Shown in pieces: positions 5,982 through 46,158 of a DNA stretch of 64,000 nucleotides (position 1 is the stretch's first letter; each line of letters starts with the position of its first letter). Source of the stretch: Kingdonia uniflora (Eukaryota; Streptophyta; Magnoliopsida; Ranunculales; Circaeasteraceae); assembly GCA_014058105.1 (NCBI GenBank), contig JACGCM010001798.1, forward strand, positions 186,001 through 250,000, written 5' to 3'. The position numbers were made by a program, and so were the translations under genes. The notes under the pieces are model-generated. The model was not told where the DNA came from. It searched no databases and saw only the letters and a program-made list of their open reading frames with translations.

Positions 5982-7556
5982 GTTCTCTCCACCTATAAGG
6001 GAGCTATTTACGGTTTCGAGGCTAAACATTGGGAGGGAGCGATGAAAGAAGATATGTACTCTCTTTTCAAAAATGGAACTTGGAAACTTTTGAAGTTGCC
6101 GAAAGGAAAGAAAGAGATCGGTTATAAATGGGTTTACACTAAGAAGCAAAGATCTCTTGATGATGAAATACGCTTTAAGGCGAGATTAGTAGCCAAGGGC
6201 TATGCTCACAGGGATGGGATCGATTACAATGAGGTGTTTTCTCCGGTTGTGAAACAATCTTCCATACGGATCCTATTGGCCTTAGTAGCGCAATTCAATT
6301 TGGATTTGCAACAACTCAATGTTAAGACGGCGTTCTTACATGGGAATTTGAAAGAAGAGATCTATATGACTCAGCCGAGTGGGTTTACGGTTACGGGGAA
6401 GGAAGACTATGTGTGTAAGCTGAAAAAGTCATTGTACGGCTTGAAGCAGTCTCCAAGGCAATGGTACAAACGGTTTGATCAGTTTATGATTGGGCAGAAG
6501 TACAAGCAGAGTCATTATGACCATTGTGTCTACTTACGCAAGCTACGTGACGGGTCCTTTATTTACTTGCTTTTGTATGTGGATGATATGCTTATTGCGT
6601 ATAAGCACAAAAGCGTGATTAATAAGCTGAAAAAGGAAATGAATGAAGAATTAGAAATGAAGGATTTTGGTGATGCGAAAAAGATTATTGGTATGGAGAT
6701 TCATAGAGATAGAGAGAATGGAACGGTGCGTCTCTCTCAGAATTCGTATATGAGGAAGGTACTTCAGAGATTTGGCATTGATGGTAACACAAAATCTGTA
6801 AGTACTCCCCTTGCTCCTCATTTTAAGCTTAAGGCTTCTATGTCTTTAAACACTGATGAGGAACGTGATTATATGAGTCAAGTTCCTTATGCTAACGCGG
6901 TTGGTAGCTTGATGTATGCTATGGTTTGTACTCGGCCAGACATTTCACAGGCAGTTGGTATGGTTAGCAGATATATGCATGATCTGGGTAGAGATCATTG
7001 GCGAGCTGTGAAGTGGATTCTACGGTATATCAAAGGTACTGTGGATATCGGGTTGGAGTTTCGTAAACAGGATTTAACTGATCGTTTCTGTGTGGGTTAT
7101 GTGGATTCTGACTACATGGGTGACTTGGATAGATGGCGGTCAACTACCGGGTATGTATTTATATTGGGTGGAGGACCGGTTAGTTAGAGATCCACGCTAC
7201 AGTCAACGGTGGCACTGTCTACTATCGAGGTGGAGTATATGGTCGTGACTGAGCCGAGTAAGGAATCCATTTGGATTAAAGGTCTTCTGCGAGATTTGGG
7301 CATTAAGATGGATCATCTTGATGTCAACTGTGATAGTCAGAGCGCTATCTTCTTGGCCAAGGATCAGGTTCATCACCAGTGCACAAAGCATATTGATGTA
7401 CGCTATCACTTTGTCAGAGAAGTCTTGGAGGAGGGTGAGATTCTGTTGAAGAAGATTCACACCAAAGATAACCCGGCGGATATGTTTACGAAAGTTATTT
7501 CGGGAATTAAGTTCAATCATTGTTTGGACTTAGTTCAAATTCTTCATGTTGATTGA
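5982..7556 (+). pseudogene. Copia A reverse transcriptase-RNase H (broken)
   Basis: The frame resumes at STYKGAIYGFEAKHW and runs through the RVT_2 domain: KARLVAKGY, FSPVVKQSSIR, LYGLKQSPRQWY and the catalytic LYVDDML. RNase H follows, with YVDSDYMGD, the S-T-E-E-Y motif and DNPADMFTK. A TAG at 7185-7187 stands where Trp is expected (GGGPVSW), and the same frame then continues to 7556. A polypurine-like AGGTGGAGAA (7853-7862) lies just before the 3' LTR. Confidence 0.92.
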
Positions 7557-28900: not shown

Positions 28901-30145
28901 CTTCGGGCTTCGAGATTTGGGATTTGGACAATTAGCTCTTCCTAGCTCTGGGGCCAAGGGCCTTCTATCTTTTTACTGAAAAGTTCTTTGGAGTTGGGCT
29001 TGGGCTTTTACTTAAGCAAAATATTTACAAGCCGTTTTAAATTATCCGTTACATCTGACTTGGTTTTACAGTCTCCGAATTTACTTGGTCTTTCTATCCG
29101 TTGGGGGAGTAGTGGGTTACATGATTCCTCGATTCCTCTCCCACGACGTCTCCTTATTTGTCTATAAAAGAAAACCCTTCCCTGCAGTATTTTCTCAACT
29201 CAGAACGCCATAGTTCCAGAGTTTTATCTCTGCTTCTCTCTCTGTTTATCGAAGCTTTATCGAATTACTGAATCCGAGTATTAGTCGAAGTGCAAAGCCA
29301 TACAAACGGTTTCCTTCCCTGCAAAGAGAAACCATAGTTTATATTACGCTGATTTATCCTGGGGGCGACGTGCTTTCTACTTGCTTGCTTTGGGGCAGTT
29401 GCATGAAACGTTTTAAAGAGAGGGACCTAGTACGTGACTCGGCCACTCCTTCCAGACTTATTTTTTAGGCTCCATTCCGTTTTGCTGTTATCAGTTATTC
29501 TCCTATACCAGTCAGTTACTTATCTCTACATTCTATTTGTTGTTGCTGGAAACGAGGTAACCCATTGATTTACAACAGGTATTACCTCTAATCCAATAAA
29601 AATCCAGTTTTCTACTTCCACTTCTACATTTCGCAAAACCGATTTGGTTTAACAATATTCATTTGGTTCATGGTTGGCTACATCAACATTGTACTAATTC
29701 TCATCTGAAGACCATAAAAATGGTTAATTTCCAATTCCCACACATTAAAAGTAGTTCAAATGCGCAAATACTACCAAATTCAATGTACAAAACTCATTGC
29801 TACAATTCAAGAAATGACGAAAAACAAATTCAAATAAAGAGAGGGCATTACCTGGAAGAAAGTAGAGGATATGCCAACAAGGAACGTCGCGGCAGCCCAG
29901 AGAAAAGCGCCAAGGGCGATAACGTGGGTGCGGTCGTGGCGGACGGAGAGGTAAACTGCTAGAGGGTAGCAAGAGGACTGTACAATGGAGCGGAAAAGAG
30001 TGAGAGAGCCAAGACCAGTTGGGTCTGTATGAAGAGCTGCACCAACCTCTTTGTAAACTCCTGGGAGCAGAGACTCATCTGCTCTCTCCATGATCCCAGC
30101 TAGGTTTACCAGTACCAAGGTTAACGTGGTTGATTTCATCTTCAT
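10459..30145 (-). CDS. MFS transporter gene, 3 exons, giant first intron
   Basis: Gene model on the minus strand: exon 1 30145-29852, exon 2 12101-11350, exon 3 10954-10459. Exon lengths 294, 752 and 496 nt give 1,542 nt, or 513 residues plus stop, with phases matching at both junctions. The protein resembles the plant MFS-1 group that includes Arabidopsis UNE2 (At1g78130): N-terminal [20 protein letters not shown], then [33 protein letters not shown] and [16 protein letters not shown]. These are probably proton-coupled or facilitative carriers of unknown substrate with 12 membrane segments. The C-terminal tail is acidic ([17 protein letters not shown]). The start was chosen at 30145 because the family begins with M-K-x-x-T-L-T-L just before this point; an in-frame ATG two codons later is the alternative. 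Intron 1 is 17,750 bp and filled by nested transposons, yet both splice sites are clean. Confidence 0.88.
11350..12101 (-). CDS. MFS gene exon 2
   Basis: Acceptor TTGTTAG|GTAGCAG and donor AA|GTAAGG. It encodes [15 protein letters not shown] through [12 protein letters not shown], the membrane core and the middle cytoplasmic loop ([19 protein letters not shown]). Confidence 0.9.
12102..12688. repeat. MFS intron 1, part before element C, with a duplicated motif
   Basis: Contains an older repeat. The phrase AGAACTGGAAGTTCCAACTC near 12415 recurs in altered form (AGAACTGGAGGTTCTATCTC) near 12641. Between them lies GAGGTGCAAGGC...GGACTATA, which is seen again near 38131-38166. This suggests a dispersed non-autonomous repeat of unknown class. 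Confidence 0.5.
12689..13031 (+). repeat. 5' LTR of element C, left part
   Basis: Starts TGTAGGGTATATCTC, matching the 3' LTR start TGTTGGGTATATCTC. It is interrupted by element B at 13031/13032. It contains the tRNA-like GGGTTCGAACCCATGACC, which belongs to the LTR and not to a tRNA gene. Confidence 0.88.
13032..13523 (+). repeat. 5' LTR of element B
   Basis: 492 bp. Carries CGTTCGAACGA palindromes, TTTGGCCCAG and TTTTGCCTCGAGA, all also present in the LTR of Copia element A, and a CTCTATAT...AAAGGGACT promoter-like box near 13322-13338. Confidence 0.9.
13526..13534 (+). other. Primer binding site, element B
   Basis: TGGTATCAG, a shortened initiator tRNA-Met type PBS, two bases after the LTR end. 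Confidence 0.75.
13617..14768 (+). pseudogene. Element B gag with zinc knuckle (broken)
   Basis: A first open piece at 13617-13844 has a basic tail. A gag domain at 13930-14430 follows ([40 protein letters not shown]), typical of Ty3/Gypsy gag. It shifts frame near 14430 into a segment with the knuckle [14 protein letters not shown] at about 14537-14580. At least two frame breaks. Confidence 0.85.
14769..15726 (+). pseudogene. Element B protease and RNase H remnant
   Basis: A 32-bp tandem duplication (14770-14801 and 14802-14833) repeats KAIMDPGS just before the protease-like [14 protein letters not shown], and it shifts the frame. The open stretch 14941-15726 then contains a Gypsy protease C-terminal part ([16 protein letters not shown]). 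It jumps near 15250-15330 directly to the RNase H end ([33 protein letters not shown]). The whole RT and integrase are deleted. Confidence 0.82.
15771..16216 (+). repeat. 3' LTR of element B
   Basis: 446 bp, the same ends as the 5' copy, with about 46 bp fewer because two CGTTCGAACGA-containing stretches are deleted. Confidence 0.9.
16222..16804 (+). repeat. 5' LTR of element C, right part
   Basis: Resumes GGCTTGGGCTTTTACTT and ends TTTACAACA, colinear with 28995-29577 of the 3' LTR. Confidence 0.88.
16832..17713 (+). pseudogene. Element C gag remnant
   Basis: Copia gag with many stops: starts [14 protein letters not shown], then a UBN2-type gag core ([25 protein letters not shown]). A long Asn/Gln-rich stretch is followed by the knuckle [14 protein letters not shown] at about 17627-17670, where the usual Gly-His is Val-His. 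Confidence 0.82.
17720..18695 (+). pseudogene. Element C protease-integrase remnant
   Basis: Protease [15 protein letters not shown] near 17780, then the pre-integrase region ([23 protein letters not shown]) and integrase fragments ([31 protein letters not shown]). In-frame stops and shifts are present. It is cut at about 18695 where element D begins, in the middle of integrase. Confidence 0.8.
18696..20309 (+). pseudogene. Element D protease-RT-RNase H, first part
   Basis: Protease [14 protein letters not shown] and [17 protein letters not shown] at 19424-19927 with [17 protein letters not shown], the [13 protein letters not shown] motif and the catalytic FVDDILIYS. After a frameshift near 19860 comes the RNase H start ([48 protein letters not shown]). 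Several stops. The expected D-A-S of RNase H reads V-A-S. Confidence 0.88.
20318..20336 (+). repeat. Left TIR of hAT element E
   Basis: Starts TAGGGCTGGC, directly after the TSD. Confidence 0.92.
21005..22035 (+). other. Probable 5' UTR intron of hAT transposase
   Basis: Donor CACAG|GTAAAC and acceptor TTTTTTGTAG|AATGATG; the transposase ATG lies 2 bases after the acceptor. No coding sequence inside. Introns in the leader are common in Ac-like transposase genes. Confidence 0.55.
22037..24057 (+). pseudogene. hAT (Ac-like) transposase, damaged
   Basis: BED zinc finger at 22250-22415 ([21 protein letters not shown]). The RNase H-fold core at 22472-23245 has [11 protein letters not shown] and [11 protein letters not shown], with the first two acidic catalytic positions visible, and the later [14 protein letters not shown]4413-like stretch follows ([12 protein letters not shown]). 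The C-terminal dimerisation domain is at 23794-24057 ([20 protein letters not shown]). In-frame stops near 22421 and 22459, at 23243 and 23402, and a frame change at the G run near 23471-23478 make it inactive. Confidence 0.9.
24357..24374 (-). repeat. Right TIR of hAT element E
   Basis: Ends ...GCCAGCCCTA, the inverse of the left terminus, followed by TSD TCTGGAGC. Confidence 0.92.
24375..25300 (+). pseudogene. Element D RNase H end and integrase
   Basis: Resumes after the hAT insertion with [17 protein letters not shown] and [15 protein letters not shown]. The integrase zinc-binding region follows ([29 protein letters not shown]) and then the catalytic core start ([20 protein letters not shown]). 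It breaks up after HGVSVSIV near 25295, well before the integrase end. Confidence 0.85.
25331..27621 (+). repeat. Probable 3' LTR of element D
   Basis: About 2.29 kb without coding signal, starting TGAAATACC and ending GGGCCGTAACA, an ending common in Del/Tekay LTRs. The start is provisional because integrase is truncated and no second LTR exists for comparison. Short open frames inside (for example around 26644 and 26884) look fortuitous. Confidence 0.6.
27622..27912 (+). pseudogene. Element C RNase H remnant
   Basis: Copia C-terminal RNase [36 protein letters not shown] and [12 protein letters not shown]. One or more stops and a short deletion remove the C-D-N part. It shows that element C resumes right after the LTR of D. 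Confidence 0.8.
27913..28474. other. Element C 3' untranslated part
   Basis: No coding signal. Ends with the polypurine-like GTGGGAGA immediately before the 3' LTR. Confidence 0.6.
28475..29577 (+). repeat. 3' LTR of element C
   Basis: 1,103 bp, TGTTGGG...TACAACA. It has a ~150-bp segment (about 28626-28776) absent from the 5' LTR. That segment contains CTATATATAGAGAG and reads like an LTR promoter/leader, so the 5' LTR probably lost it. Confidence 0.9.
29583..29851. other. MFS intron 1, donor-proximal remnant
   Basis: Original intron sequence between the second TSD copy of element C and the exon 1 donor. No feature seen. Confidence 0.6.
29852..30145 (-). CDS. MFS gene exon 1
   Basis: 98 codons, ending ...STFFQ with donor CAG|GTAATG. 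Covers the first two to three membrane segments and the conserved MERADE motif. Confidence 0.88.
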
Positions 30146-31164: not shown

Positions 31165-31941
31165 TTACAGTCTTCTTCGATACAGCTTCCCTTCAGCGTC
31201 TTCTTTGATTATAATGCAAAGGGGTTCCGGAAAATTCTTGGGCCATAACACTACATCTTTCCCACAAAGGTTCATCTTTGAAAGATGGTCAGCAGCTCTG
31301 TTGGCTTCTCTCCATGAGTGAGTTACACGATGCTTCTCGAACCTTTTCAAAAGCTTCCAAATGTGAGTCAAACAACTATGAGCATAAGGAGGATAAGAGA
31401 TTTCTTTGTTAATAACTTTCACAACACTCTCAGAATCTGACTCGACCCACACAGCTTTGATTCCATGACCTTGTGCTAGAACAAGACCCCGCCAAATAGC
31501 CCAAAGTTCGAGTGAGAAAATCCCATCTCGAGTAGTGTTGGAGACGAACGCACATATTGGATTTCCCATGTAATCACGAAGCAAACCACCTAAACGAGCA
31601 TTCTCAAGATCAAGAGATCCATCAGTGTTTAATTTTGTCCATCCAGCATCCGGTTTATCCCATATACACCAACGAGTATGCCCATTGAGGTTTACCCCAC
31701 CAGTTCTTTGCGGCACTAGGTCCAAAACAAGCTTTTCATTGGATGAACGTCTACGTATTTTGAGTCCATATCCCTCCATGACCTTGTGTTTCCTCCCCTC
31801 AATATGTTTCATGAAATCTGGCTCGCTGGTCGTACTCACAAGACAAGGAGTACATGTCCAAACTTTTTCTACTTTCTTCTCACTAGATAGTAGAAGGACC
31901 TCTGCATTCATCCTTGATATGTTCGACGGCCTCGACTTACC
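31165..31941 (-). CDS. HVA22/RNase H gene exon 3 (finger + RNase H)
   Basis: Acceptor TTGTAG|GGTAAG. One exon of 259 codons contains both the U1 finger and the RNase H fold, starting GKSRPSNISRMNAEV, clearly homologous to the VKSRQPYFP starts of the finger exons in the plus-strand gene. The RNase H part keeps the first Asp (NTDG), the Glu (SLELWA), the Asp of ESDSES and the last Asp (RAADHL), so catalytic residues may be present. Confidence 0.85.
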   Translation of the reverse strand, partial: GKSRPSNISRMNAEVLLLSSEKKVEKVWTCTPCLVSTTSEPDFMKHIEGRKHKVMEGYGLKIRRRSSNEKLVLDLVPQRTGGVNLNGHTRWCIWDKPDAGWTKLNTDGSLDLENARLGGLLRDYMGNPICAFVSNTTRDGIFSLELWAIWRGLVLAQGHGIKAVWVESDSESVVKVINKEISYPPYAHSCLTHIWKLLKRFEKHRVTHSWREANRAADHLSKMNLCGKDVVLWPKNFPEPLCIIIKEDAEGKLYRRRL

Positions 31942-34900
31942 CTACAATAATATTAAATTGAATCATAAGAATAAATTCAGTGCCAATAAAATTTTCAATA
32001 CACACAATTGTTGTTGTTTTTTTCTTTCAACAGATTTAATGAAATAAGAGAGTAGAATAGAAGCTTATCATGGATTGAATGTTCATCTTAATTACCCACA
32101 AGATTGCTAGGCTGAAACAGGCTAAAAATTAAGACTCGTAACCCTAATTCTTTCTTAAATGAAATCCAAGTATCTGCTCATCATTGCAAATCATATGTGA
32201 CTCCTGCTACTTCTCTGAAAGGATGCCCTTCCATCTCGCCACAATCTCATCTAAGAAACTACCTCTGAAGATTGCACAAGATCTGCCCAAAGAGAAGAGT
32301 AAGACCTAAATTTCAACTAACAGAGCAGGCATCTGTAGCTTCTTCCCTCCAAAATCTTGTTGTTTTATTCATTCTGTATACCCCAAAAGATAATAACTCT
32401 TTATCTTCCAAAGTTGACCTAAGCCAGCTGCAAAAGAGATTTGAAACCAGCATTGACATATCCCAACCCAAGCTAACTACCAAACCCCACAAACCGCCTC
32501 ACAATACAGATGCAGTTGATCACATGTTAAAGTGTAATATATTTACTAAACTTCAGTTTCTAGCAATAAGGATACACTACATATTTTTCCAAGAGCATTC
32601 ACTCTAGTGAAGAATAGGAATGTAGTTGTATTTTCGGAAGACCAAATGTGTCTTGATGGAAAAAATAGGAGATCTATATGATTAAATGTCAGGTAAAACG
32701 ATGTCACATGAGAAGGTTCTTTTTGTTATAAAACCATTTCCACTTATCACTTATGTTAGGATTATAACAAATTAGCTCCAACCTCTTGATTAGATTAGCA
32801 ATATATCCACATCATTAAGACCCCTCCTAAGATTGCAATTACAATCCCACTCATTTTGATTCCGAAGTATGACCTTGAGTCTTGACTTATGTCTAGTGAT
32901 GGGATACAACTCACAAAAATCCTCCGTAAGAGATAATTTAATTTACCACCCGAATAGCCTCCCAAATCTCACTCAATCTCCTGTCCCCATCACCAAATCC
33001 ACCCCTAGATTTTAACCTCTAGTCTTCCATCCTCCTCTCCTCTCACCGTATTTTGCGGTCATGATACTTGTCCACATTTCCCCTTTCTATCAAGTTTAAA
33101 TCGTCGCCTAGCCCCTAACTCAACTCTCTTATATAGGAACCTATGAAGAGCCTCCAGAACAAGAAAGAGCAAATTATGGATATTCATGCATAAGGCCGTG
33201 AGAACTCCATAAAAAAATACATTCGGAGAGCTATTCACAGGAATTGAGAAAATAACACAGTATATACGCTACCGGACTAGACGTGTCCATATGGGTCTGA
33301 ACTGCAATCAATCAAGCACGCAGTGAAGCCACTCCAAAGTCATGTAGTCATAAGCTTTATCCATATAAATTTTACAAAACCCCTGGATTCTCATCTTAGA
33401 ATCAATGGACTCGTTAATTAAACTTTGTAGAGAGATTGAATTGTAATGAACTGAACGATTTATTCTTCTCTCTAGGAGGCTTTATATAGAGATAATACAA
33501 GGGCAGTTACAACAACCATTAAGTAGTTGTTACTAAGCTAATAAAACAGGGGGTTGCAGACCTAATTAAGGGGTTGTTACAAACCTAGTTAATAGGCTGT
33601 TACAAACTTAGTTAAGGAGCTGTTACAAACCCAATTAAAAGGTAGATTTAATAACACTGAATAACCTATTACAATAAACTCTTTTCTATTATTGTCGCAA
33701 GGTAGTCAATGTGTATTGCGATACGAATATGACCATGGCTAGCAATATGCAGCATGGATCTTGCGGCCGCAACGCGACATGTTACGGTGCGTTGCGATAC
33801 ATCAGGTGAAATATTGCATATACTGATGTATGCACTCATTAAATGTATAATAATTAATCGCATATGGGTTTCTTTATTTTGTATGTAGATGATATTAATT
33901 AGGTTTGGGTTTTAAGTTTTATCAAGATTTAATATTATTCTTATTATGTGCTTTTGTTTGAGTTTCCTTGATGGAGTTTTAAACTTTGTGAATTATCAAA
34001 TATGAATGATCATAATCGAGGTTCTAGTTTTACATATATTTCAAAATCAAGTTTTGAGGTTTAAAAAATCCCTTACTCAACGTATGAGTTGAATTTCTCG
34101 TAGACCCTTGCAACGCATTATGTATTACGAAGTATTGCAACATGTTGCGATAAATTGCGTCGCAATTAAGTTATATGGATCAGAGGTGTTGCGAGGTGTG
34201 TTGCGTTACGCCCAAATGTAGCAACACTCGCATCAGTAGCAATTGCGCTCACAACACTTGTATCAGACTACCTTGGTCTTATGTCATAAAGTTTCTACCT
34301 GACCATTAGGAAAAACAATCTAATATCTTAATCTAGATATGATCTAAATTTATATTAGAATTTGATTTGTGAGAAATTAAAAACATAATAAAACAAAATT
34401 ACAAGTGGCAACCGTGAATTGAAAAATAAAGAGCTTCGTATAGAAGCATCCAAGGGGTACTTTGTGTCAGACGGTGTCCATATTAATTCCATAACGAATT
34501 AGATGGGTATGCCTTTCTGAAGTATCTATGAATCATAGCTAACAATTATATAGAGCAGGAATCCCCCTTACATAAAGACTGAAAGCAAGAATGTACCTTG
34601 CTGATGTATTTCTCTAATGTTTCAATTCCACTATGTTCTATATACTGCTTTGCTGCCAAAAGAAAGTCATATGAGCTAAGGATGTAGTTTTCATTCGACG
34701 GGATAAACCAGGCTCTAAATTGTTGCAGCTTCAAAAAAACACATGGTTTAGCAAAGTGTTGGTAGACATAAGAAGCACCACTGAAGTACGGAAGCACCAA
34801 CCAACAGGTGGTCACCAGCTTTAAATAAGGCCAGAATGGAAGCCTAAATTTGAACACAAACAAATTTGAGCAGATAGGCATTAGTTCCTTGCAGTATTCA

Positions 34901-37211
34901 AAATAGTATCTGATTGGGATAAGAATACATGGGGACTGGTATTCTGCAATCAAATATCAAAAATCTTTTCCTCTTTTTCATTAATAGACCTTTTTTTCTG
35001 CTTGACAAGTGGCTGCCTACATCCCTCAATTGGGATCAAGTTACTGTAGTAAGATTATTACAACCAGGCTAAAAGGCTAACATCTCAAGCCTGCAGATTA
35101 GCATCTTAAAATACAAAGACAAATGAAAATAAATTAAATCTATACAGCTGAAACCCGCACAAATATTATCTTCATCATTCCAAGTCACTTCATCTTTTAA
35201 TATATTAGGTTGTCTGATGTTAATAGACCTTTTTTTCTGCTTGACAAGTGGCTGCCTACATCCCTCAATTGGGATCAAGTTACTGTAGTAAGATTATTAC
35301 AACCAGGCTAAAAGGCTAACATCTCAAGCCTGCAGATTAGCATCTTAAAATACAAAGACAAATGAAAATAAATTAAATCTATACAGCTGAAACCCGCACA
35401 AATATTATCTTCATCATTCCAAGTCACTTCATCTTTTAATATATTAGGTTGTCTGATGTTACTTTTACGATTCTAGAACCTATTTTTCACAGTCGTCTCC
35501 TATCACACATGGTCTCTGCTTTAGTTACAAATTAAACAATGGACTTTCCGTAGCTAGTATAAAGGCATCTAGTTGGCCTTTTCTGCACACTTTGATATTT
35601 GGTGGTCGAAATTTTCATTCTAATAGTCAAATAAAGGGGCGAGTTATAGCCAAATGAACGCTCGGAAACAAACCAGCGAGATGCAGCCAAGTTAAGTGCT
35701 TTGTCCACTTATTTTCTTTCTTCTGACAAGCCTTTTTATTCTATCAAGGTATTTTAACGGCATCTAGGATAATAAAAACACTGACACGGTTTATAGGGAG
35801 ATCAAAACCAAAGTAAAATTGCATATCCAAAGGAGTACTAGTTGGTATATTATATTTAGTCTTTTCAGCACTATACCACAGTCCACTCCGTTCCTAAAGA
35901 TATTAGCTACTTTCCATCTTCACTCTCTACTTCAAGGATAAAATACAAGTCTTCCTTTTCTATACTTTCATCTTATTTTCTATGATTGACTTTTGATTAT
36001 CACCCGTAGTTATGGGAAGCTCTTCTTTTCTTTTGGTTTATGGTAGTTTTGGGATATGGCAGACTCGCTTCAAATTTCATTGAATCAAACTTGAAAGAAA
36101 CTACAATTGTCAAGATCTGAAACTAAATTTTCAGGAGTCCTAGAAAACGTTGCCAGGGCTATATTTTTTAAGATAGAACTGTATGCTGCATTTCCTGAAC
36201 AGTACATGAACGATGAAACATGATTAGAAACTATAACTACAATTAAATGCATTCAATATTAGGCCTTGTGTATGGTGTAAAAACAAATTAGGTTTGATGT
36301 GGCAGATTTTGAAGCAACAGAGAAACACAGAAGAATGTCCAACTTTAGTCTGATAGTCGCCAAAATTATACTCGACTAGAGGAATTTTTTCTTAAAATAC
36401 ATATTTGAGTGCCCAACTTTGGTGACGATCATCATCCAAACTGCGTCAGAATTTGACAAATCTTGGCTATTTGGAAAATGAAATGGAATTCGGGGGAGGT
36501 CAATTTCCCGAATTTTCTGGCTTGTTCGTAAAAAAAAACTCTGTATGTTAAATTCACTTGGGTCTTCTAATTAGGTTGGGTTTTCACTATTGGTGGAACT
36601 GATTTTAGACCTTTTTTAGGTTCCATATACCCATATGCAAGTAATGTAAGCTCTTACTAAGCTCATATACGAAAGAAACCTTACATTACATTTTATTTAT
36701 GAGTGTGGTTAAAGATAAACTCCACTTGAGAGTGTGAGTAACTTGTAAGTCGTAACCTTGATTAAGATAAGTGGATTCTTCACACTGGTCTCCCCTTCCC
36801 TTAAATTCTTGTGTTCTTCTTTTGTGTGTGTGTGTGTGTATGGTTGTCTTTGCATTTTTTGTTTAGTGTTTACTTCTTCATCCATGTATCTCTTGAGGCA
36901 AACTCTAGAACTAGCTACCCTAATTTCCCAACACCTTAAACACTAACATAACCGAGAACAAAGCACATTTACAAAACCCAAGTTAATTGCATCTCACATT
37001 GCTCATAAAACTATCTACATACATTTCACATTATACACATTCCCAAAACTTAAAAAATTATCATAATCAAACAAACATTCGGAGAAATCCAGACTTACCA
37101 TATAAGAATATCTGCGAGCATAAGCTCGAAGACACCGATAAGCGTGAAAATGACCCAATAAGCAATCCATTGTTGAATGTCACTGTTGGAGTTACAACTC
37201 TCAACTTCCAT
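31165..37211 (-). CDS. HVA22-like / U1 zinc finger / RNase H fusion gene
   Basis: Gene model: exon 1 37211-37099, exon 2 34843-34597, exon 3 31941-31165; 113+247+777 nt give 378 residues with matching phases. Domains: residues 1-about 105 are the TB2/DP1/HVA22 fold (QWIAYWVIFTLIGVFELM, LPFWPYLKLVTTCWLVLPYF). Residues about 145-170 are a U1-type finger (CTPCLVSTTSEPDFMKHIEGRKH, C-x2-C-x12-H-x5-H). Residues about 210-355 are an RVT_3-type RNase H fold (KLNTDGSLD, SLELWAIWRGL, VESDSESVVKV, REANRAADHLS). HVA22/REEP proteins shape tubular ER membranes; U1 fingers often bind double-stranded RNA. The first HVA22 hydrophobic segment is missing because the codon before the start (CGSIM) corresponds to the usual YPLYASIRA stretch, and the only upstream exon seen looks untranslated. 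Function of the combination is unknown. Confidence 0.78.
33430..33660 (-). repeat. LTR-like segment with ~27-bp minisatellite
   Basis: On the minus strand it reads TTATCTCTATATAAAGCCTC (a TATA box), then AATAAATCG...CATTACAATTC, as in a small Copia LTR. Next to it GTTACAAAC-CTAGTTAA-GG-CT units repeat about every 27 bp (33540-33650). It could be a solo LTR or TRIM; ends not resolved. Confidence 0.4.
33698..34275. mobile_element. Candidate MITE with CAAGGTAGTC inverted ends
   Basis: CAAGGTAGTC at 33698-33707 and GACTACCTTG at 34266-34275 are inverted copies. Both inner flanks are rich in GTTGCG/TTGCGATA words in opposite orientation. 578 bp, non-coding. No clear TSD could be read, so the class is open. 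Confidence 0.4.
34597..34843 (-). CDS. HVA22/RNase H gene exon 2
   Basis: Acceptor AAATTTAG|GCTTCC, donor AGCAAG|GTACAT. 82 codons: LPFWPYLKLV to YISK. Equivalent to exon 4 of the divergent paralogue. Confidence 0.85.
34981..35458. repeat. 239-bp perfect tandem duplication
   Basis: 34981-35219 and 35220-35458 appear identical base for base by eye. They lie in intron 1 of the HVA22/RNase H gene, about 140 bp upstream of exon 2 in transcript direction. Identity implies a very recent duplication or an assembly artefact. Confidence 0.9.
37099..37211 (-). CDS. HVA22/RNase H gene exon 1 (coding)
   Basis: MEVESCNSNSDIQQWIAY..., donor ATATG|GTAAGT. The exon itself begins at an acceptor TACACAG upstream of the ATG; an untranslated exon with donor TTGTCAG|GTACAA lies near 37365-37440. 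Confidence 0.8.
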
Positions 37212-38551
37212 GATTGAACCACACCTGTGTACAAGTTAAAACAGATATTAACCTAAAAAGTACAAAATTGATTAGTATTTCAGCAAATTAATCACATGGG
37301 TAAATCAAAGTAATTGGTGGAAACACAAAGAAACCCTAATTATTAATCAGAGAGAGAGTTGTACCTGACAAGAAGATGAAAGGTTTGAGCCAACAGTTGG
37401 AGAGAGATACTCCCTCCAGAAAGTTGTATTTATAAAAATGAGACAGCCAAATTTACTCAATTGCCCTTTTGTTTGCTTAGTCGCCAAGATAACGGTAACG
37501 GCCGCGTCTGTTATCACTACACGTTTTCTTCATTTCAACTCTTTGATAGTCTCCGTCCATCTCAACGCGGGTAACGATTTTGGGTTACGCGGGTATTTTC
37601 CAAGTCAACTCCTATTTAGCTTTTCAATCTGAGAAAGATGTAACTCGAGGATCTCATTCGATTTTCGCTATTAAGCACACATCCCCTAAATAAGTGAGAA
37701 GGCTGAAGATCACAGATAAAATTTCAGCATGACGGAATTTATTCAACTTGAAGTCAAGGCAAAGATCATGAGAAAACTGTTTATACTTTAGTTTGTATCG
37801 AGCTCACGATTAGCTGGCAGGCCTCACGAGTATTTACATATAAAAATAATATGGAACTCTCTTTACAAAGGGTTGGCAATTGTTTATTTAAAAACTATTG
37901 TAGATTTTCAAAATTGTTTTCCCGACCATTTAATTAATAATAATCATACATTTTATTAGACTGTCTTTATTAGTTTTTTTATATATATATTTAAACATTT
38001 TAGTAGGAAGGATTATTTGTACACAAATTAATCCTTTTAACAAATAAGATTAAAAAGTAAACAAATAAACATTACTTTGAATATTAACCGACTAAAAGTA
38101 TGAGGAGTAGCCGCATTATCTTATATTTTGAGGTGCAAGGCTTTTTGTGCCCGATGTGGGACTATATATCTCAATTCTCAACAAAAAGTATTGGATGAAA
38201 ACACTTAAAATACGAAAACTCTCACATCAATGTTATGTGTATTTTGTTCATATCTTAGACAAGCTCTAGAGCTCGAAACGCGTCTGACAAACTCCCAAAT
38301 CAATATCAATATTTGCTGAAACCCAAAATGCTGATATGGAAAAAAGAAAACCGAGGCAAGGGCGTGTTATCTAACGGAAGTATAAGGGTAGTTTCGCAAT
38401 TACATTAAAAACAACCCCATTTATAAAGTCAGCTCGAAACAAGTACTTTTATGCTTGTAAGTCTTCCCCAAGTCTTTTTGGTCTCAACAAGTGAAGGAGA
38501 CTAGAAATTGCACCCCCTTTTTTTTCTTGCTCTCTCCAAAGCAACAGAGTG
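37212..38551. promoter_or_regulatory. Shared upstream region of two divergent HVA22-like genes
   Basis: About 1.3 kb between the two start codons, including the untranslated first exon of the minus gene (about 37365-37440). It probably contains both promoters. It also holds a dispersed repeat at about 38100-38230 (GAGGTGCAAGGC...GATGTGGGACTAT) related to the one near 12470-12515. No individual promoter motif is claimed. Confidence 0.5.
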
Positions 38552-38607
38552 ATGGGTTTTGCTGATCTTGTCATGTTGATGCTGAAAAGCTTTGATCTTC
38601 TTGCCTG
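38552..38607 (+). CDS. HVA22-array gene exon 1
   Basis: 18 codons plus 2 bases, donor GCCTG|GTATGC; encodes the first amphipathic segment. Confidence 0.82.
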
Positions 38608-41600
38608 GTATGCATTCATTTCTCTCATAAGATCATCTGAAAATACTCAACTTCTCATATTTATTTTTTTATTTGTGTATGAAAAATATTTGATTCTACT
38701 TGTACCAAAATTATTTCTTTCTAATTTTCATCTTTGAGGGAAATATGAGGGGGACCAATTATTATTATTATTATTATTTTCTTCCTGTTCTTGAATGTTT
38801 TTTGTTGTTGTGGGAAACTGTAATGTTATTTTACTCATGCAAACTATTTTCTTACAATCAAAACTCATTTCCTTAGGAATACATGAGCTTTCTTGGATAT
38901 TTTTCTTTCTAATTTTCATGGGTTTTTCCTGGAGAAAAATTTTAGTTGTCGTAATGGAAAATGTATATAGTTATTAGTTAATTGCATGTATAGAGGTTGT
39001 ATGTGTTACTTATTATGAACTTAGGCCTTAGGGACTTATTATAAATGAGTAAAGTATGATCTATACTTTGTCTAAAGCACATAATTGCTTTGGTATTTGA
39101 TGCTATCTTTGGTTATGTTTGGTTTTGCAGGCCACTAATTTCTCTGGTTTATCCTATGTAAGTGGGAGTATTAATTTAAACATTTCGTTTAGCTTCTCAG
39201 ATGCTTTAGTTTGATACTCACTTAAAATCATGTTTTTATTCTTAACAGATGGGCTTCTATTAGAGCAATTGAGTCTAACTCGAACGGTGACAATAGGAAA
39301 TGGCTCACATTTTGGACTCTAGTTGCTTTGGCAATGCTCTTTGAGAATATATTTGAACCACTCATCAAATGGTAATTCTTGCATAGTGCATTAAAGACCT
39401 TATACGGGACCATTGCAAACCTTTAGGAAATTTTCCTAAGTTTTTATTAAGTTAGAATCCATGTTTTGCTGTGGTTCACGTCGCATTACAAGTGCACTTT
39501 CACGTGGAGAGATGTAATTTATTCTGATATTTTTGTATATTGATTTGTGTTTACATGTGACAGGATTCCATTTTGGCTTGAGATGAAGTTGGTGTTTACA
39601 TTCTCTTTGGCGGCTCCTCGCTTGAATGGGGCTATTTATGTTTATGAAAATTTTATTAGGCCTTGCTTTCTTCTTTACCCACAAACATGCAGGTGTTGGT
39701 TCAATAACACACGGAAGACTTTCTTACCTGATGTTAGTGATTCGGAGAATTTCCTATTTGTGGTTGACAGATACATCAAAGAAAACGGATCTGAAGTTTT
39801 GGAGAAGCTTATCGCTGAAAAGGTATAACTTCATCACTATGAAGTAGTTAATGATAACATTGCACTTTTGAGTTTCAAAGTATTTTGTTGCTTGGCATCA
39901 TTTAGAGTTTGGCAATGTAGGTTGAATTCTTGAAAGACAAGTATTACAGTGATAGCTGTTGGAAATATCTTACTAATTAAAGATCAAGGTGTATTAAGAC
40001 TTAAGAGAGAGGGAGAGAGGATCAGAATCTTTCTTTGTTCTAGACTGGAAGTATGGACTGCTGCCTTTATTGATTATATAATTCGTATGAGTCCTGAATT
40101 ATGGAGTATTGAGGAGTGTTAATAGTAGGGCCTTAGAAGCTCTCTGTAGATAATCCTAAATCGGAAATGTAGGTAAGGGAGATATGTAGCCTAAAAGTGG
40201 ATGTCTACTATATCCCAGGTATTGTAAAAACTTGAGAAATGAGAAAACTACTCTAACCTAAGCAAACCCCAAGTGGCCCGTGTAAGGGAAAATGCATGTG
40301 CGCAGAACAGTCCCATCCCTCAACAACACAATGGAGACTGAAGACTGTACCATAAAACTGAAATGAGGATTTAACAATCATTCTCTCTGTCGGAGTTCTT
40401 TATTACTTCTTTTTCCAAGCTCATTCCATTACAACAAAAAAGAACGTACAACAAAGTCCGGAACGGGTCCATAATCCAGGAAGGAACATCCCTTCCAGTA
40501 TACTGTACATCAAGTTCTGAAAACGGCCCCTAAAAGCAAGTTCATGTGATATTATATTATGATGATTATACTTTTTTATACTAGGTAAACTGAGGTTAAG
40601 GCAGGACCCCATGAACCAGGATTTATTAATCAAATAAAACCAAATTACATCCTTAAATATTTCATCCCCTAGCATCTTCATCAATCATGGTACAAAGAAT
40701 TGGAGGGAAGGAGCTAGGGTCCAGAACACTTTCACCTATTACATTGCAGTAGAGTGGGAAGCAAAATAATCAGCACACCTATTTGCCTCCCTAAAGATAT
40801 GAAAAACAACAAAGTAATCAAGAGAGGCAATGATCCTCGTAATAGCCATAGCTGTAAGGTAGCAGTGCCAAGGTGGAGGCTTGTTATCTCTGAAATCATA
40901 AGCTCTGAATCAGTTCCCAGTGAAATCCTCTTGAAACCTCTTTCAACCCCACCAAAATACCTTGCAGAATGGCTTGCGTCTCATGAAGTACCACACACTT
41001 CCCAACCACAGTTCCACTGTACCCAACAATCCCAGCACCTCAGCGGTTCTATACAGCCTACTATAGCCACCAAGATCATTCAGAGAACCATCAGTATTGA
41101 GCAACACTGAGTTATTTTAAGGAGGGGACCAACTGCAGTAAACTTTCTTAGGAAGAATAAAATGTGAAGCTATACTCCAAGCATGGCAGATATTTCTAAC
41201 CCCAGCAGTATCAGAAACCTGAGTAAGAGTTTCCCTTAGTCTATAAGTAACATCATAGCACAAGAGCTTAAAAGGGATCATATTATGTAAATTATGTTAG
41301 AAAATGCAGTAGCCATAAAGCTATATTATTAACTTTTATGATACAAGGATGTGCAAAAATACTAACTATTATACTCTTCTTTGAGATGAGCAACTTAGTT
41401 AAAATATGTCAAGGCATAAGACTTTTGAAAGTCTACATGAAAAGCTTAGCCTGTGATGCAGAAATGCTTTTCCTGAATAACTGGTGGCCTTTTGAGTAAG
41501 CCTTACCTTGAGGAATCTTCTTGAATAAACCTCTAAATGCAGGTTACATTCACAGAGTCTAATCTTTCTCAGCTTAAGGGAAGAAAAATCTTGAGTGAAG

Positions 41601-44600
41601 AGGAGAACAAAGTCACGACAGCAACATGCAATGAACTTCCTTGTTCTCCTGTTTTAGAGAAAACCCAAGAGGAATGGGCCTGTGCTCTTTGTCAAGTAAG
41701 CACTTCCAGAGAAGCAATATTCAAATGCCACCTTCAAAGTAAGAAGCATAGGAAACAAGAGGACCTCGAAGCTCTTAATATAACAGCGACAAGCAAGGAT
41801 AACTCTGATCCAAATGAAAAAGAAGAACCTGCAGTAAGACCAAGGATGGTATGTCATTCTTCCAGTATCAGTATTGTAATTAAGTCATTCATTTCAATAT
41901 CACGTTATGGCAATTATCATCCATCAAAAATGGAGAATAAACGTGGATAAGTAGAATATTTTGTAAAAGGAGTCTGCAAGATAGTAGGTATTTGTTAAAT
42001 TTGGTTTGGGATTATGAAGTGTAAGCCTCAACAAAAAGGTATTTCGGTGTTGTGTCTCCCTCAAGGCATAAGCCTTTGAAATGACTGTTTTAATATCAGA
42101 GAACCCTTTGTTAAATAAAAACCATTATCTGGCGCTTTTGTGAAATAAAACCATGATCTGGCGCCTAGAGGCATTTTAAAGGAGCCTTGTTCTAAGGCGG
42201 GCCTCAAAGCGTATGCCTCCTGATTCTGTGAAAAAAATGGGTAAGATTTTCTGTTTTACTTTTAGGACATGTGAAATTTCCATATGCTGGTTACTGAGTC
42301 TCCACCCTTGCTAATTAGCCTAACCTAGGCAATAAGGCCACAGCTCATTGATGAAATATTGACACCTTGCCCTATATTGCAGATTCCTTGCCCTGCTTTG
42401 CAGGTTAAGTCGATCCAACCTTATCTTCCTTGGGCTGAGAGAACAGAAAACATCTCTACCGAGAAGAAGAAAGTACCGGCTTCAAAACCTGATGATTCTC
42501 CTGGTTCCCCAGTTTTAGTGAAAATCCAAAAGGAGTGCACAGGTTGTCTTTGTCAATTGAACACTTCAAGCGAAGGAGATTTGAAATACCACTTTCTGGG
42601 TAAGAATCACAAGGAGAATCAGGATGAGCTCAGAACTGAATATATGGCCACCAGAAACAAGGGTAGCTCCGATCCAAATGAAGCAGATGAGAACAAAGTC
42701 ATGACAGCAAAATTCAAACTTCCCACTTCCCTTGTTTTAGATTTAACTCAAAAGGAGTGGACCTGTGCTCTTTGTCAAGTGAGCACTCTAAGCGAAGGAA
42801 CTTTCATAGACCACCTTCAAGGGAAGAAGCATAAAAAACAGGTGGTTCTCCAATCTCAGAAGACGGAAAGCAAAAACAAGGATAGCTCTGATGCAGATGA
42901 AACAGATAAACCTGTAGTAGGGCCAATGACGGTTTGTCATTCTTATTGTAATGAAGTCATTTCTGTTAATTTCCGATCACATTGACTATTATCTCCATCA
43001 TAAACAAGTGTATCGTAGTTTAATGAATGTGTGTTTTTTTGTAGACTAATTGCATGGAGGGTGATTGTGCTAAGACTACGAGCAACGCAGTAATTGCCAT
43101 AGAGAACAAAGACGCGGCACAGACAGTTATGGTAAGATTTTTTTATGAAAATGCCTAGGCATGGGATGAGTTGTTTTGCTAGCCAAAGCCTATAGACTTA
43201 AGACTCAAAGCATAAATTGTAATTAGGAGCATACACCTTTATGGTATATAATTATTATTTATGTACATATAAATACTTGAGCTTCCACTAAAATAAAAAG
43301 CGCGGGGAGATATTAAAAGTAGAAGACAAAAAGGTAAGTATGCTTCTAGATATAAATTATAAACTCAGGTTGTAGAACACCAAAAGAATTGTAGAATATA
43401 GTAAATAAGCGGAATATCTAGTGGAAGAAAACATACTATATTAATATGCGAGATGGACTAGATATTTTGAATATGGGCTGGGATTATGAAGAGTTAATCT
43501 CAATCAAAAGGCGATATGCGGTCACTCCTCCCTCAAGGCATAAGCCTCTAAAATGTGTATGTGTTTGACTTGGAACCCTTTGTCAAATATACCATTTCTT
43601 TGCGCCTTGGAGCATTTTAAGGGAGGCTCGCCGTGAGGCAAATCTCAAGGCATAAGCCTCCTGATTGTTTGGCAACATCCGTAAAACTTTCTATTTTACT
43701 TTCAGAACCAATTGAAAATTTTCAAATACCAGTTACTATTCTCCGACTTCACAAAGTTGCCTAACATAAATAGAAAGGCCATTTCTCGTTGATGAAATAT
43801 TTACACCTTGCCTTCCATTGCAGGTTAAATCCAGGCAACCTTATTTTCCGCTGATTGAGAGAAAAGAAATTGTCTATGCAGAGGAGAACACAGTCACAGA
43901 AACAAAACCCAATGAATCTCTTGGCTCCCCACTTTTAGTGAAAAGCCAGAAGGACAGTACTTGTTGTCTTCAATCAAACATTTCCGCTGACAAAATTTTA
44001 AAAGACCACTTTCTGGGTAAGAATAATAAGGAGAAACAAGAGAAGCTCATAGCTGAAAATATAGCAGCCAAAATCAAGTATAGCTCTGAACCAAATGAAG
44101 CAGATGCGAATCAAGTCACTGCAACAAAACGCAATGAGCCTCTTGGTTCTCTTTTTTTAGAGAAAAACCAAAAGGAATGGACTTGTATTCCTTGTCAAGT
44201 AAACACGCTCAGCGAAGCAACGTTCAAAGGCCACCTTCAAGGGAAGAAGCATAGGAAACAGGCTGATCTCCAGGCTCATAAGATGCCAGACAGCTCTGAT
44301 CCAAGTGAAACAGACGAACCTGTAGTTGGACCAAAGACGGTTCGTCATCCTTTCTTTCTTTTTGAAAATCATGTGTAGTTCTTTTATTATCAATATAATC
44401 ATTAAGTCGGGTTCTTAATTTCAGATCACGCTATGACCGTATTGTTATCCATCATAAATGTGTTTATTGAAAGTTTGATCTCTTACAGGCTAATTTCATG
44501 AAGCCTAATTGTGCCAAAACTGTGAACAGTGCAGAAATAGTCATAGAGAACAAGGAAGTGGCAGCTACAGTAATGGTAAGATTTAATTATTCTAAATGCC

Positions 44601-46158
44601 AAGGCATGAGGTGAGGTGCATCAGTGGCCAAAGCTTGTAGATGAAAAGGCATCTCTCATTAATGAATTCACACCTTGCCATGCACTGCAGGTGCCTTATC
44701 TTCCTCAGGCTGAAAGAAGAGAGATCATCCTTTCAGACAAGAAAGAAGTCACTGCAACTAAACTAAATGAATCGCCTGGCGCCCCGGCTCTAAAGAAAAC
44801 ACAAAATGGTGTGAATATTTGTCAATTAAAGACTTACAGAGAAGAAAATCTGAAAGACCACTTTCTGAGTAAGAATCATAAGGAGAAACAGGAGGAGCTC
44901 GGAGCCAAAAGTATGGCAGCCAGGAACAACGGACGCTCTGATACAAATGAAGCAGACAAGAACGAAGTCACTGCAACAAAACACGATGAACCTCCCGGTT
45001 CTCCTGATTTAGAGAAACCCCAAAAGGAATGGATCTCTGCACCTTGTCAAGTAAACACTCTCAGTGAAGCAACTTTTAAAGACCACCTTCAGGGGAAGAA
45101 GGTCAGAGCTCATAAGATGGCAACCAAATACAAGGATAGTTCTGACCCAAATGAAACAGCTGAAGCTGTTTTAGGACCAAAAACGGTTTGTCATTTTTCC
45201 CTTATTGATATTGTAATCAAGCCATTTATTTCAGTTGCACATCACATTATGACTATCGTTATCCATCAGAAATATGTGCTTAGTACAATCAATATGTTAC
45301 TTTACAGGTTAAGTGTACGGAGTCTAACTGTGCTAAGACCTTGGGTAATTCAATGATAGCCATGAAGAACAAAAAAGCGGCAGCAACTGTTCAGGTAAGA
45401 TTAACAAAAACCAAGGCATGAGGTGAGGACCGTCTCTGGCTAAAGGATCTAAGCGTACACTTCTTACAATAGAAAATCAATTGAACTTCCACTAAAATAC
45501 AAAACAAGCGACCGGTATCATCTGGTTAAACGTTAAAATGTTGTAGAAAAGGAATTACAATTAGAGCCTGCAGGATTGTCCAACTTCTTTAGAGATGTGT
45601 TAGAATCATGAAGCTTAATCCGCGTTCAAAGGCATCAAGGATTTAAGCCTCCCTCAAGGAGCAAGCCATTGATTTTTTTTTTGGAATAATAGTTATTCCT
45701 CAGAGACATTTTAAGGGAACCATGTCTCAAGGCGTAGGCTTCATGAGTTTTTGAAACATTCGTTAGAGTTTCTATTCATCCTTTCTGAAGTAAACCTTGT
45801 ATAGATGAAAAGGCAATATCTCGCTGATGAAATATTCACATATTGCACTATATTGCAGGTGAAGTGCACGCAAGTTTATCGTCCTCGGGTCTATAACCAA
45901 ACTCTTGCCGCTGAAAAAAATAAAATATCTGTAAGTGAAGGCAATGAGCCTCCCCGTTCCCCGGTTTTGTTGAACACACAAATGGAGTGGACTTGTGCTC
46001 TTTGTCAAGTGAGTACTTCTAGTGATGCAAATTTGAAGGACCACCTTGGAGGGAAGAAGCACTTGGAGAAGGAAGCTGAGCTCAAAGCAAGTAAGATGGC
46101 TGCTAAAAGAAAAGCTGGACCTGTTTGGATTCAAAACAAACATATCAACCCACAATAG
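38552..46158 (+). CDS. HVA22-like membrane protein with U1 zinc-finger array, 12 exons
   Basis: The twelve exons sum to 2,871 nt (956 residues plus stop), with every junction GT-AG and in phase. Residues 1-154 form the TB2/DP1/HVA22 domain: MGFADLVMLMLKSFDLLAW, PLISLVYPIWASIRAIE, KWLTFWTLVALAMLFENIF, IPFWLEMKLVFTFSLAAPRLNG. Such proteins wedge into the ER membrane and interact with tubule-shaping partners. Residues after about 154 are soluble, charged and repetitive. They hold eight finger positions: canonical C-x2-C-x12-H-x5-H fingers in exons 5, 6, 8 and 12, and decayed ones in exons 6, 8 and 10. Repeated linkers read SSDPNEAD, VTATK and PGSPVL. Exons 6, 8 and 10 are near copies, each followed by an 87-nt exon; all boundaries from exon 5 on are phase 0. 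The start codon is the first ATG after a pyrimidine-rich leader. What the finger array binds is unknown; double-stranded RNA or DNA is the family expectation. Confidence 0.82.
39131..39157 (+). CDS. HVA22-array gene exon 2 (27 nt)
   Basis: Micro-exon with acceptor TTTGCAG and donor AT|GTAAGT, encoding PLISLVYP. Its size and position match the second exon of many plant HVA22 genes. Confidence 0.82.
39249..39371 (+). CDS. HVA22-array gene exon 3
   Basis: WASIRAIESNSNGDNRKWL to EPLIK; acceptor TTAACAG, donor AAATG|GTAATT. Confidence 0.85.
39564..39822 (+). CDS. HVA22-array gene exon 4
   Basis: 86 codons: IPFWLEMKLVFTFSLAAPRL to KLIAEK; acceptor GTGACAG, donor AAAAG|GTATAA. End of the membrane domain. 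Confidence 0.88.
40742..41110 (-). pseudogene. Antisense RNase H-like (RVT_3) remnant in intron 4
   Basis: Read on the minus strand: NTDGSLNDLGG near 41080-41105, FHWELIQSL-type and DNKPPPWHC segments, then HIFREANRCADYFASHS near 40750-40810. These are first and last motifs of the plant RNase H-like fold. Stops and frame changes break it. It lies antisense in the intron separating the membrane domain from the finger exons. Confidence 0.65.
41543..41848 (+). CDS. HVA22-array gene exon 5
   Basis: 102 codons with one canonical finger (CALCQVSTSREAIFKCHLQS..KKH region). Donor GGATG|GTATGT. Confidence 0.85.
42404..42931 (+). CDS. HVA22-array gene exon 6
   Basis: 176 codons with two finger positions. 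The first has lost its first cysteine register (CTGCLCQLNTS). The second, CALCQVSTLSEGTFIDHLQG, is canonical with the final His in KKH. First complete repeat unit. Confidence 0.85.
43045..43131 (+). CDS. HVA22-array gene exon 7 (87-nt linker exon, copy 1)
   Basis: 29 codons: TNCMEGDCAKTTSNAVIAI... Acceptor TTTGTAG, donor TATG|GTAAGA. Confidence 0.75.
43824..44339 (+). CDS. HVA22-array gene exon 8
   Basis: 172 codons, second repeat unit. First finger decayed (CCLQSNISADKILKDHFLG, ending KNN), second canonical (CIPCQVNTLSEATFKGHLQG, then KKH). Donor GACG|GTTCGT. Confidence 0.82.
44489..44575 (+). CDS. HVA22-array gene exon 9 (87-nt linker exon, copy 2)
   Basis: 29 codons: ANFMKPNCAKTVNSAEIVI...; same size and phase as copies 1 and 3. 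Confidence 0.75.
44691..45185 (+). CDS. HVA22-array gene exon 10
   Basis: 165 codons, third repeat unit. Both fingers are decayed: the first lacks its first cysteine, and in the second the first cysteine is Ser and the last His is lost by a short deletion (GKKVRAHK). Confidence 0.78.
45308..45394 (+). CDS. HVA22-array gene exon 11 (87-nt linker exon, copy 3)
   Basis: 29 codons: VKCTESNCAKTLGNSMIAM...; donor CAG|GTAAGA. Confidence 0.75.
45859..46158 (+). CDS. HVA22-array gene exon 12 (terminal)
   Basis: 99 codons and stop. One canonical finger (CALCQVSTSSDANLKDHLGG, then KKH) and a basic C-terminus (KMAAKRKAGPVW). Confidence 0.85.
   Translation: MKCTQVYRPRVYNQTLAAEKNKISVSEGNEPPRSPVLLNTQMEWTCALCQVSTSSDANLKDHLGGKKHLEKEAELKASKMAAKRKAGPVWIQNKHINPQ

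Follow-up and report, generated by a model that had tools for sequence, protein, structure and literature searches.

The TB2/DP1/HVA22 domain occurs in REEP5, Yop1 and barley HVA22, short proteins that shape the endoplasmic reticulum (ER) and have no zinc fingers, whereas ZNF346/JAZ, Xenopus ZFa and rice DRG9 carry fingers of the zf-met and JAZ class and have no known membrane domain. Here we describe a gene of Kingdonia uniflora (Ranunculales) that joins the two, an HVA22 domain being followed in one reading frame by eight finger positions of the same class. The gene lies in a stretch of 64,000 nucleotides (contig JACGCM010001798.1, positions 186,001 to 250,000 of the forward strand), hereafter called the window, to which all coordinates refer. 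The sequence comparisons reported below indicate that it is the local copy of an HVA22-zinc-finger gene found in many eudicots, and that its array of fingers grew inside the Kingdonia gene as a unit of two exons was duplicated in tandem together with its introns.

The initial annotation had put the gene forward as the best candidate for an undescribed system in the window, a claim that does not hold, since published surveys of cultivated tomato (PMC9602767) and of several Solanaceae (PMC9933743) already include HVA22 proteins with ZnF_U1 or Zf-met fingers and count them within the HVA22 family. Two tomato HVA22 proteins, SlHVA22f among them, have extra domains (ZnF_U1, ZnF_C2H2, RVT_3; PMC9602767). 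The Kingdonia protein shares with the tomato and Solanaceae proteins the HVA22 domain and the U1/Zf-met fingers, but differs in that its array has eight positions, built from a triplicated two-exon unit, and in that it has no LWC finger at the end; the accessible passages of the two papers contain no discussion of array growth. In the available parts of other texts, zinc fingers are named only in a reference (cotton, PMC10025482) or only for Piccolo (the REEP/Yip review PMC9437294), and the word zinc does not occur (passion fruit, PMC10835403). The searches made of the open-licence literature brought up no functional study of a finger-bearing HVA22. As far as searches of that literature go, the architecture is known, while its function and the dynamics of the array are undescribed.

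The fused gene and its relatives

All 11 introns of the gene are GT-AG, and its twelve exons give 956 codons with no internal stop; the coordinates, exon number, frame and length of the initial annotation were reproduced to the base. The GenBank counterpart GIB67_026001, HVA22-like by name, shows 99% identity from end to end, the visible difference being seven residues, IPCPALQ, which stem from an exon 6 acceptor 21 bases upstream. When the introns are aligned, it is this GenBank acceptor that falls in line with those of the sister units. The two sites lie in tandem at 42383-42403 on the forward strand, 21 bases from each other, apparently as the product of a short local duplication, and use of either keeps the frame, giving 956 or 963 residues. 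Intron 4 contains antisense fragments at 40665-40843 (reverse strand), two pieces resembling the C-terminal portion of the RNase H-like domain (E = 0.002 each), which are probably the remnant of a retroelement or of an RVT_3 domain.

The part encoded by exons 1-4 belongs to the TB2/DP1/HVA22 family, with a Pfam match to TB2_DP1_HVA22 (PF03134) at residues 27-103 that spans the whole profile (positions 1-77 of 77; E = 3.1e-24, 85.1 bits against a gathering cut-off of 27.2). It ends in a conserved helix, ..FL..V.RYIKENGSE.LEKLI..K. The AlphaFold model of the protein has a mean predicted local distance difference test (pLDDT) score of 49 and reaches 73-86 for residues 1-80 and 83-93 for residues 131-160.

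A survey of plant proteomes for both domains, with fingers counted per species, had been proposed in the initial annotation. Protein searches returned 22 and then 19 proteins (13 of them new), which together with the neighbouring gene treated below make 36, and PF03134 and PF12874 (zf-met) are both listed in every one. Two are the Kingdonia genes, and the other 34 come from 22 further genera, namely Camellia, Rhododendron, Olea, Nelumbo, Vicia, Macleaya, Solanum, Orobanche, Alnus, Fragaria, Rosa, Lonicera, Nicotiana, Salvia, Anisodus, Actinidia, Cornus, Fraxinus, Paulownia, Castanea, Ranunculus and Coptis, all of which we take to be eudicots. The searches scored only word-sharing candidates (7923, 142 and 7991), so the missing of a plant group means nothing, and some of the relatives look like merged gene models (P0002, P0007). 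By the profile hidden Markov model (HMM) of the family, the 36 proteins have from 1 to 14 finger positions. The Kingdonia protein has the order of the plant HVA22-Zf-met subfamily, HVA22 and then one or more EWTC..C-type fingers, as seen in alignments of 12 and 30 members. In a tree of the HVA22 part (28 rows) it groups with the sequences from Macleaya, Ranunculus and Coptis at a support of 93/79, and Nelumbo stands next to this group (91/88), both branches falling short of the starred threshold of the tool; the placement is as would be expected for a vertically inherited gene. At 0.92 its branch is long in comparison with the median end branch (0.28).

These relatives support the earlier claim of one fused gene, and their shared architecture, together with the Pfam E-values of the Kingdonia protein, excludes chance. 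The opposite explanation, that exons 1-4 are an HVA22 gene of their own beside an independent finger gene, or that a chimeric prediction joins the two only in silico, draws on the length of intron 4 (1720 bp, the longest of the gene) with its antisense RNase H-like fragment, on the relatives that look mis-merged, and on an in-frame ATG at 41537, just 5' of exon 5, for which we raised its minute probability slightly. We nevertheless judge it extremely unlikely, since both domains recur in one model in the 34 proteins of other genera, exons 4 and 5 meet in phase 0 on both sides, and a finger likewise follows HVA22 in the neighbouring paralogue and in the Nelumbo relative of that paralogue.

Growth and decay of the finger array

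The eight finger positions recognized in the initial annotation were confirmed by eye, and seven of them are detected by the family HMM, which misses finger 4. In Pfam, zf-met (E = 6.9e-40, 134.7 bits against a cut-off of 21.2) and zf-C2H2_jaz, described as double-stranded RNA-binding (E = 9.9e-20, 70.7 bits against 22.6), both exceed their gathering scores, which agrees with the previous assignment of the fingers to a type that binds double-stranded RNA (dsRNA). The family zf-U1 (PF06220) is absent among the 10 families reported for the protein at E up to 1, and does match one relative, Ranunculus P0033; the label U1-type therefore rests on the two matching families and on the CX2CX12HX5H spacing, whose zinc ligands are all kept in four of the eight positions (Table 1). 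The ligand losses are of different kinds, with substitutions in finger 2, one missing codon in finger 4 and two missing codons in finger 6. An LWC..C-type C-terminal finger, present in 11 of 12 aligned family proteins, did not turn up in the Kingdonia window, and a few relatives with one finger each (P0027, P0030) lack it as well. The idea that such a finger is hidden downstream was rejected, since a tblastn search of the window with four terminal fingers gave no match at E up to 0.05 other than the fingers of the known array.

Self-comparison reveals three tandem units, each consisting of an intron end, a two-finger exon and an exon of 29 amino acids, which are 68-71% identical with their introns included. 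Identity is 68.8% over 1112 columns between 42137-43196 and 43579-44641, 70.5% between 42419-43139 and 44694-45402, and 68.1% between 43773-44633 and 44643-45445. Intron stretches are separated by Jukes-Cantor (JC) distances of 0.34-0.50 in nine pairs, and of 0.34-0.46 in the six pairs with more than 100 columns. All junctions among exons 5-12 are phase 0 on both sides, and the length of each of these exons is a multiple of three (exon 12 with its stop codon included).

The ratio of nonsynonymous to synonymous substitution rates (dN/dS) is 0.49, 0.43 and 0.45 for the pairs of two-finger exons, with upper confidence limits of 0.80, 0.69 and 0.71. The limits reach 1 in all three pairs of the small exon and in four of the ten pairs of single-finger pieces (A halves), and exon 5 compared with the other A halves gives 0.88-1.01. 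The ratios thus show constraint on the two-finger exons and not on every piece of the array, in which single fingers decay. The unit duplication, the dN/dS pattern and the distinct lesions of the fingers bear out the earlier proposal of an array that has been growing and decaying.

This amplification is not peculiar to the Kingdonia lineage, and arrays appear to have been amplified separately in other plant lineages. For 10 of the 36 proteins each finger, with its flanks, was compared both with the rest of the protein that contains it and with fingers from other plant families, in a pool of 117 of the 123 HMM-found fingers, from which those under 25 bits were dropped (Kingdonia finger 6 included) and in which finger 4 never was. 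Five of the six scored Kingdonia fingers are nearest each other, and finger 8 alone is nearer to a finger of another family (Camellia). In Camellia P0002, Salvia and Solanum P0013 the last EWTC-type and the terminal LWC-type fingers match other families and the other scored fingers match within the protein; the first finger of Nelumbo is a near tie (145 vs 147), and no EWTC finger of Orobanche, Olea or Camellia P0006 has a better outside match. Other parts of the protein are duplicated too in Olea, Vicia and Lonicera. The simplest reading of these matches is an ancestor with HVA22, one EWTC finger and one LWC finger, whose EWTC finger was amplified separately in several lineages.

An array that erodes so visibly might be dispensable, the HVA22 part doing the work and the inherited finger tail expanding and decaying under weak constraint with little consequence. 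The degenerate positions (four of eight in Kingdonia, five of 14 in Salvia), the differing lesions, the terminal finger not found by tblastn in the window and the long HVA22 branch would all fit this explanation, as would the values for exon 5, the A halves and the small exons and the elevated ratio of nonsynonymous to synonymous diversity (piN/piS) given for K. uniflora as a whole in the accessible part of PMC9866071. We regard it as unlikely, since the dN/dS limits of the two-finger exons stay below 1 in every pair, four fingers are perfect, and all array exons are in frame despite the divergence of the longer intron stretches.

Table 1. Features of the array gene and of its head-to-head neighbour in the window
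Feature	Position	Strand	Remarks
Array gene	38552..46158	+	12 exons, 956 amino acids; GenBank counterpart GIB67_026001, 963 amino acids
Exons 1-4	38552..39822	+	38552-38607, 39131-39157, 39249-39371, 39564-39822; TB2/DP1/HVA22 domain and conserved C-terminal helix
Intron 4	39823..41542	+	phase 0, between HVA22 part and fingers
Finger 1	41672..41758	+	exon 5; Cys-Cys-His-His (CCHH) ligands intact
Tandem units	42137..45445	+	42137-43196, 43579-44641, 44643-45445; each intron end, two-finger exon and 29-amino-acid exon; from self-comparison
Finger 2	42533..42619	+	exon 6; first Cys of CX2C lost in register (substitutions)
Finger 3	42755..42841	+	exon 6; CCHH intact
Finger 4	43953..44039	+	exon 8; degenerate Cys side, one-codon gap, second His to Asn; missed by family HMM
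Finger 5	44175..44261	+	exon 8; CCHH intact
Finger 6	44808..44891	+	exon 10; first Cys lost, two-codon gap
Finger 7	45027..45113	+	exon 10; first Cys and second His (region) lost
Finger 8	45985..46071	+	exon 12; CCHH intact
Neighbour gene	31165..37224	-	HVA22 without counterpart of exons 1-2, one CCHH finger, RNase H-like RVT_3; 378-amino-acid model; GenBank GIB67_026005, 393 amino acids
Neighbour model exons	37224-37099, 34843-34597, 31941-31165	-	ATG at 37211

Possible role at the ER surface

The reading that we favour, and to which we give about an even chance, is that the protein is an ER-anchored binder of structured RNA, because of the matches of its fingers in profile and fold searches, the precedent of rice DRG9 and the ER location of tomato SlHVA22f. 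A profile built from 30 of the 36 members and compared with the sequences of the PDB gave 14 matches at E up to 0.1, of which the best is the dsRNA-binding protein ZFa (1zu1, E = 3.1e-6), followed by TUT1 (listed as Speckle targeted PIP5K1A-regulated poly(A) polymerase) and spliceosomal PRP11. A fold search with the AlphaFold model ranks the TUT1 finger in complex with U6 snRNA first (38 columns, root-mean-square deviation 1.2, probability 0.99); spliceosomal fingers and JAZ ZF3 (rank 17) come below it, with unrelated rows, membrane helices included, in between. In that model, blocks of finger 3 have pLDDT values of 95-97, those of finger 5 of 68-96 and those of finger 8 of 50-89, and the linkers are mostly below 50.

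Binding of dsRNA is stated for ZNF346, and DRG9, described as its homologue with five predicted zinc-finger domains and as cytoplasmic, binds dsRNA in vitro and protects one stress mRNA, according to the accessible passages of PMC10957929. The ER location suggested in the initial annotation gains indirect support from a green fluorescent protein (GFP) fusion of SlHVA22f, which was found mainly in the ER of rice protoplasts (PMC9602767).

In the mechanism that we propose, HVA22 hairpins would hold the protein in the ER membrane with its tail in the cytosol, where the intact fingers, four in Kingdonia, would recognize RNA that is structured or double-stranded, irrespective of its sequence. Binding would come about by avidity, with several weak fingers acting jointly from flexible linkers, and structured RNA would thereby be held at the ER surface, most likely in the handling of mRNA at times of stress (storage, stability or local translation). 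Since phase-0 introns flank every array exon, a unit could be gained, lost or skipped without a break of the frame, which would leave the number of fingers free to vary, and individual fingers could decay because the remaining ones would suffice.

The fingers could instead serve an ER adaptor, recruiting cytosolic protein partners to ER tubules, with the length of the array tuning the number of partners. Fingers of the zf-met/C2H2_2 kind are not exclusively RNA binders, the linkers are long and modelled at low confidence, and array length varies widely among the 36 proteins, all of which would suit such an adaptor. The HX5H spacing is that of JAZ/U1-type fingers, however, both the best PDB profile match and the top fold row are RNA-associated fingers, and DRG9 offers a plant precedent for RNA (PMC10957929); we hold the adaptor to be possible but rather improbable.

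Several observations weigh against an RNA binder anchored in the ER. Zinc ligands are missing from half of the finger positions, and the terminal finger typical of the family did not turn up in the window. Among the 14 profile matches are also ZFHX4 and an entry for TATA-binding protein, neither of which is evidence for RNA fingers; a PDB search with the Kingdonia sequence alone gave nothing significant (best E 0.36), and the fold search had no match at E 0.001 (140 at E 10). AlphaFold fails on the intact finger 1 (26-33) yet models the degenerate finger 6 (79-92), and within the HVA22 part it gives residues 81-130 only 46-66. Hydropathy in windows of 19 residues (step 3) exceeds 1.6 in one stretch only, residues 7-25. 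Neither the abscisic acid (ABA) response element ACGTGKC nor CACGTG occurs in the promoter region at 37225-38551, the 1.3 kb between the array gene and its neighbour, which has one ACGTG and one RCCGAC. For the Kingdonia protein or an array-bearing orthologue we found no RNA-binding or localisation datum in the literature. By the letters used for wild tomato, SlHVA22k is probably the finger type and SlHVA22f the RVT_3 type, so that the protein located in the ER would not be of the array type. Stress regulation in tomato is mixed in the accessible passages of PMC9602767: SlHVA22k is up in drought and heat and down in cold, the drought induction (2.5- to 8.5-fold for SlHVA22k, l and n together) counting in favour of our reading, and SlHVA22f is up with ABA and down in cold, heat and drought.

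The head-to-head neighbour and the rest of the window

A second HVA22 gene, absent from the initial annotation, stands head-to-head with the array gene at a distance of 1.3 kb and combines HVA22, one intact finger and an RVT_3 domain (Pfam E = 5.6e-25). Its 378-residue model has two introns in common with the array gene, one in phase 2 within HVA22 and one in phase 0 where HVA22 meets the finger; at this second place the GenBank model has 15 extra residues that the Nelumbo relative lacks. This relative, LOC104595530, has the same three domains and is 47% identical over 416 columns (HVA22 43%, finger 57%, RNase H 72%, the most conserved part), but the Kingdonia neighbour is without HVA22 exons 1-2. 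A Nelumbo HVA22 query found no match for these exons upstream of 37224, in a search of low power, as the array gene's own exons 1 and 2 reached only E 5.3 and 4.8. The motifs LNTDG, SLELW, ESDS and HSWREANRAAD stand at matching places in both proteins, and we take their acidic residues to be the catalytic ones of RNase H; with these kept and the Pfam domains in place, the neighbour belongs to an HVA22-finger-RVT_3 class. The HVA22 tree puts it and the Nelumbo relative on one side of a branch with support 88/79, although the Kingdonia row is very long and its placement unsure. A PDB sequence search with the neighbour gave nothing at E 0.1, and the single match of its RNase H part alone (E 1.6) was taken as chance; its AlphaFold model (mean pLDDT 52, RNase H part mostly below 50) was not used.

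The pairing of HVA22 with RVT-3 is also found in SpiHVA22f, StHVA22g and others (PMC9933743), a likeness that concerns the neighbour and not the array gene; the accessible passages of that paper are silent on whether these Solanaceae proteins have a finger. The head-to-head pair might form one RNA-handling module at the ER surface, in which the array captures dsRNA, that of ER-replicating viruses included, and the paralogue, through an RNase H domain that keeps its acidic residues, equips the same anchor and finger with a nuclease. We consider this very unlikely; if it were true, a conflict with fast-changing RNA would have left its mark in the repeated, independent expansions in Kingdonia, Camellia, Salvia and Nelumbo.

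An intron of the neighbour contains a perfect direct repeat of 242 bp (34981-35222 and 35220-35461, spacing 239), which may be a recent duplication or an assembly artefact. Elsewhere in the window, two stretches on the reverse strand about 18 kb apart match MFS_1, at profile positions 3-84 (29852-30145, below the gathering score) and 147-315 (11346-11915), and could belong to a single transporter gene interrupted by an intron full of retroelements. Retrotransposon reverse transcriptases lie on the forward strand at 5970-7187 (RVT_2, E = 3.4e-75) and 19424-19927 (RVT_1, E = 1.7e-27). Two open reading frames at 22037-23245 (forward strand) resemble a hAT-type transposase by eye, with no Pfam match at E 0.001.

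Implications for the HVA22 family

Plants from the Ranunculales and Nelumbo to the relatives of tomato keep an HVA22 protein with RNA-type fingers together with a sister that has an RNase H-like domain, both of which surveys count among the stress-response HVA22 proteins. With its membrane anchor and its defined fingers, the Kingdonia gene would be a clean case for testing, and the natural series of array lengths among its relatives may serve to find out what the number of fingers does.

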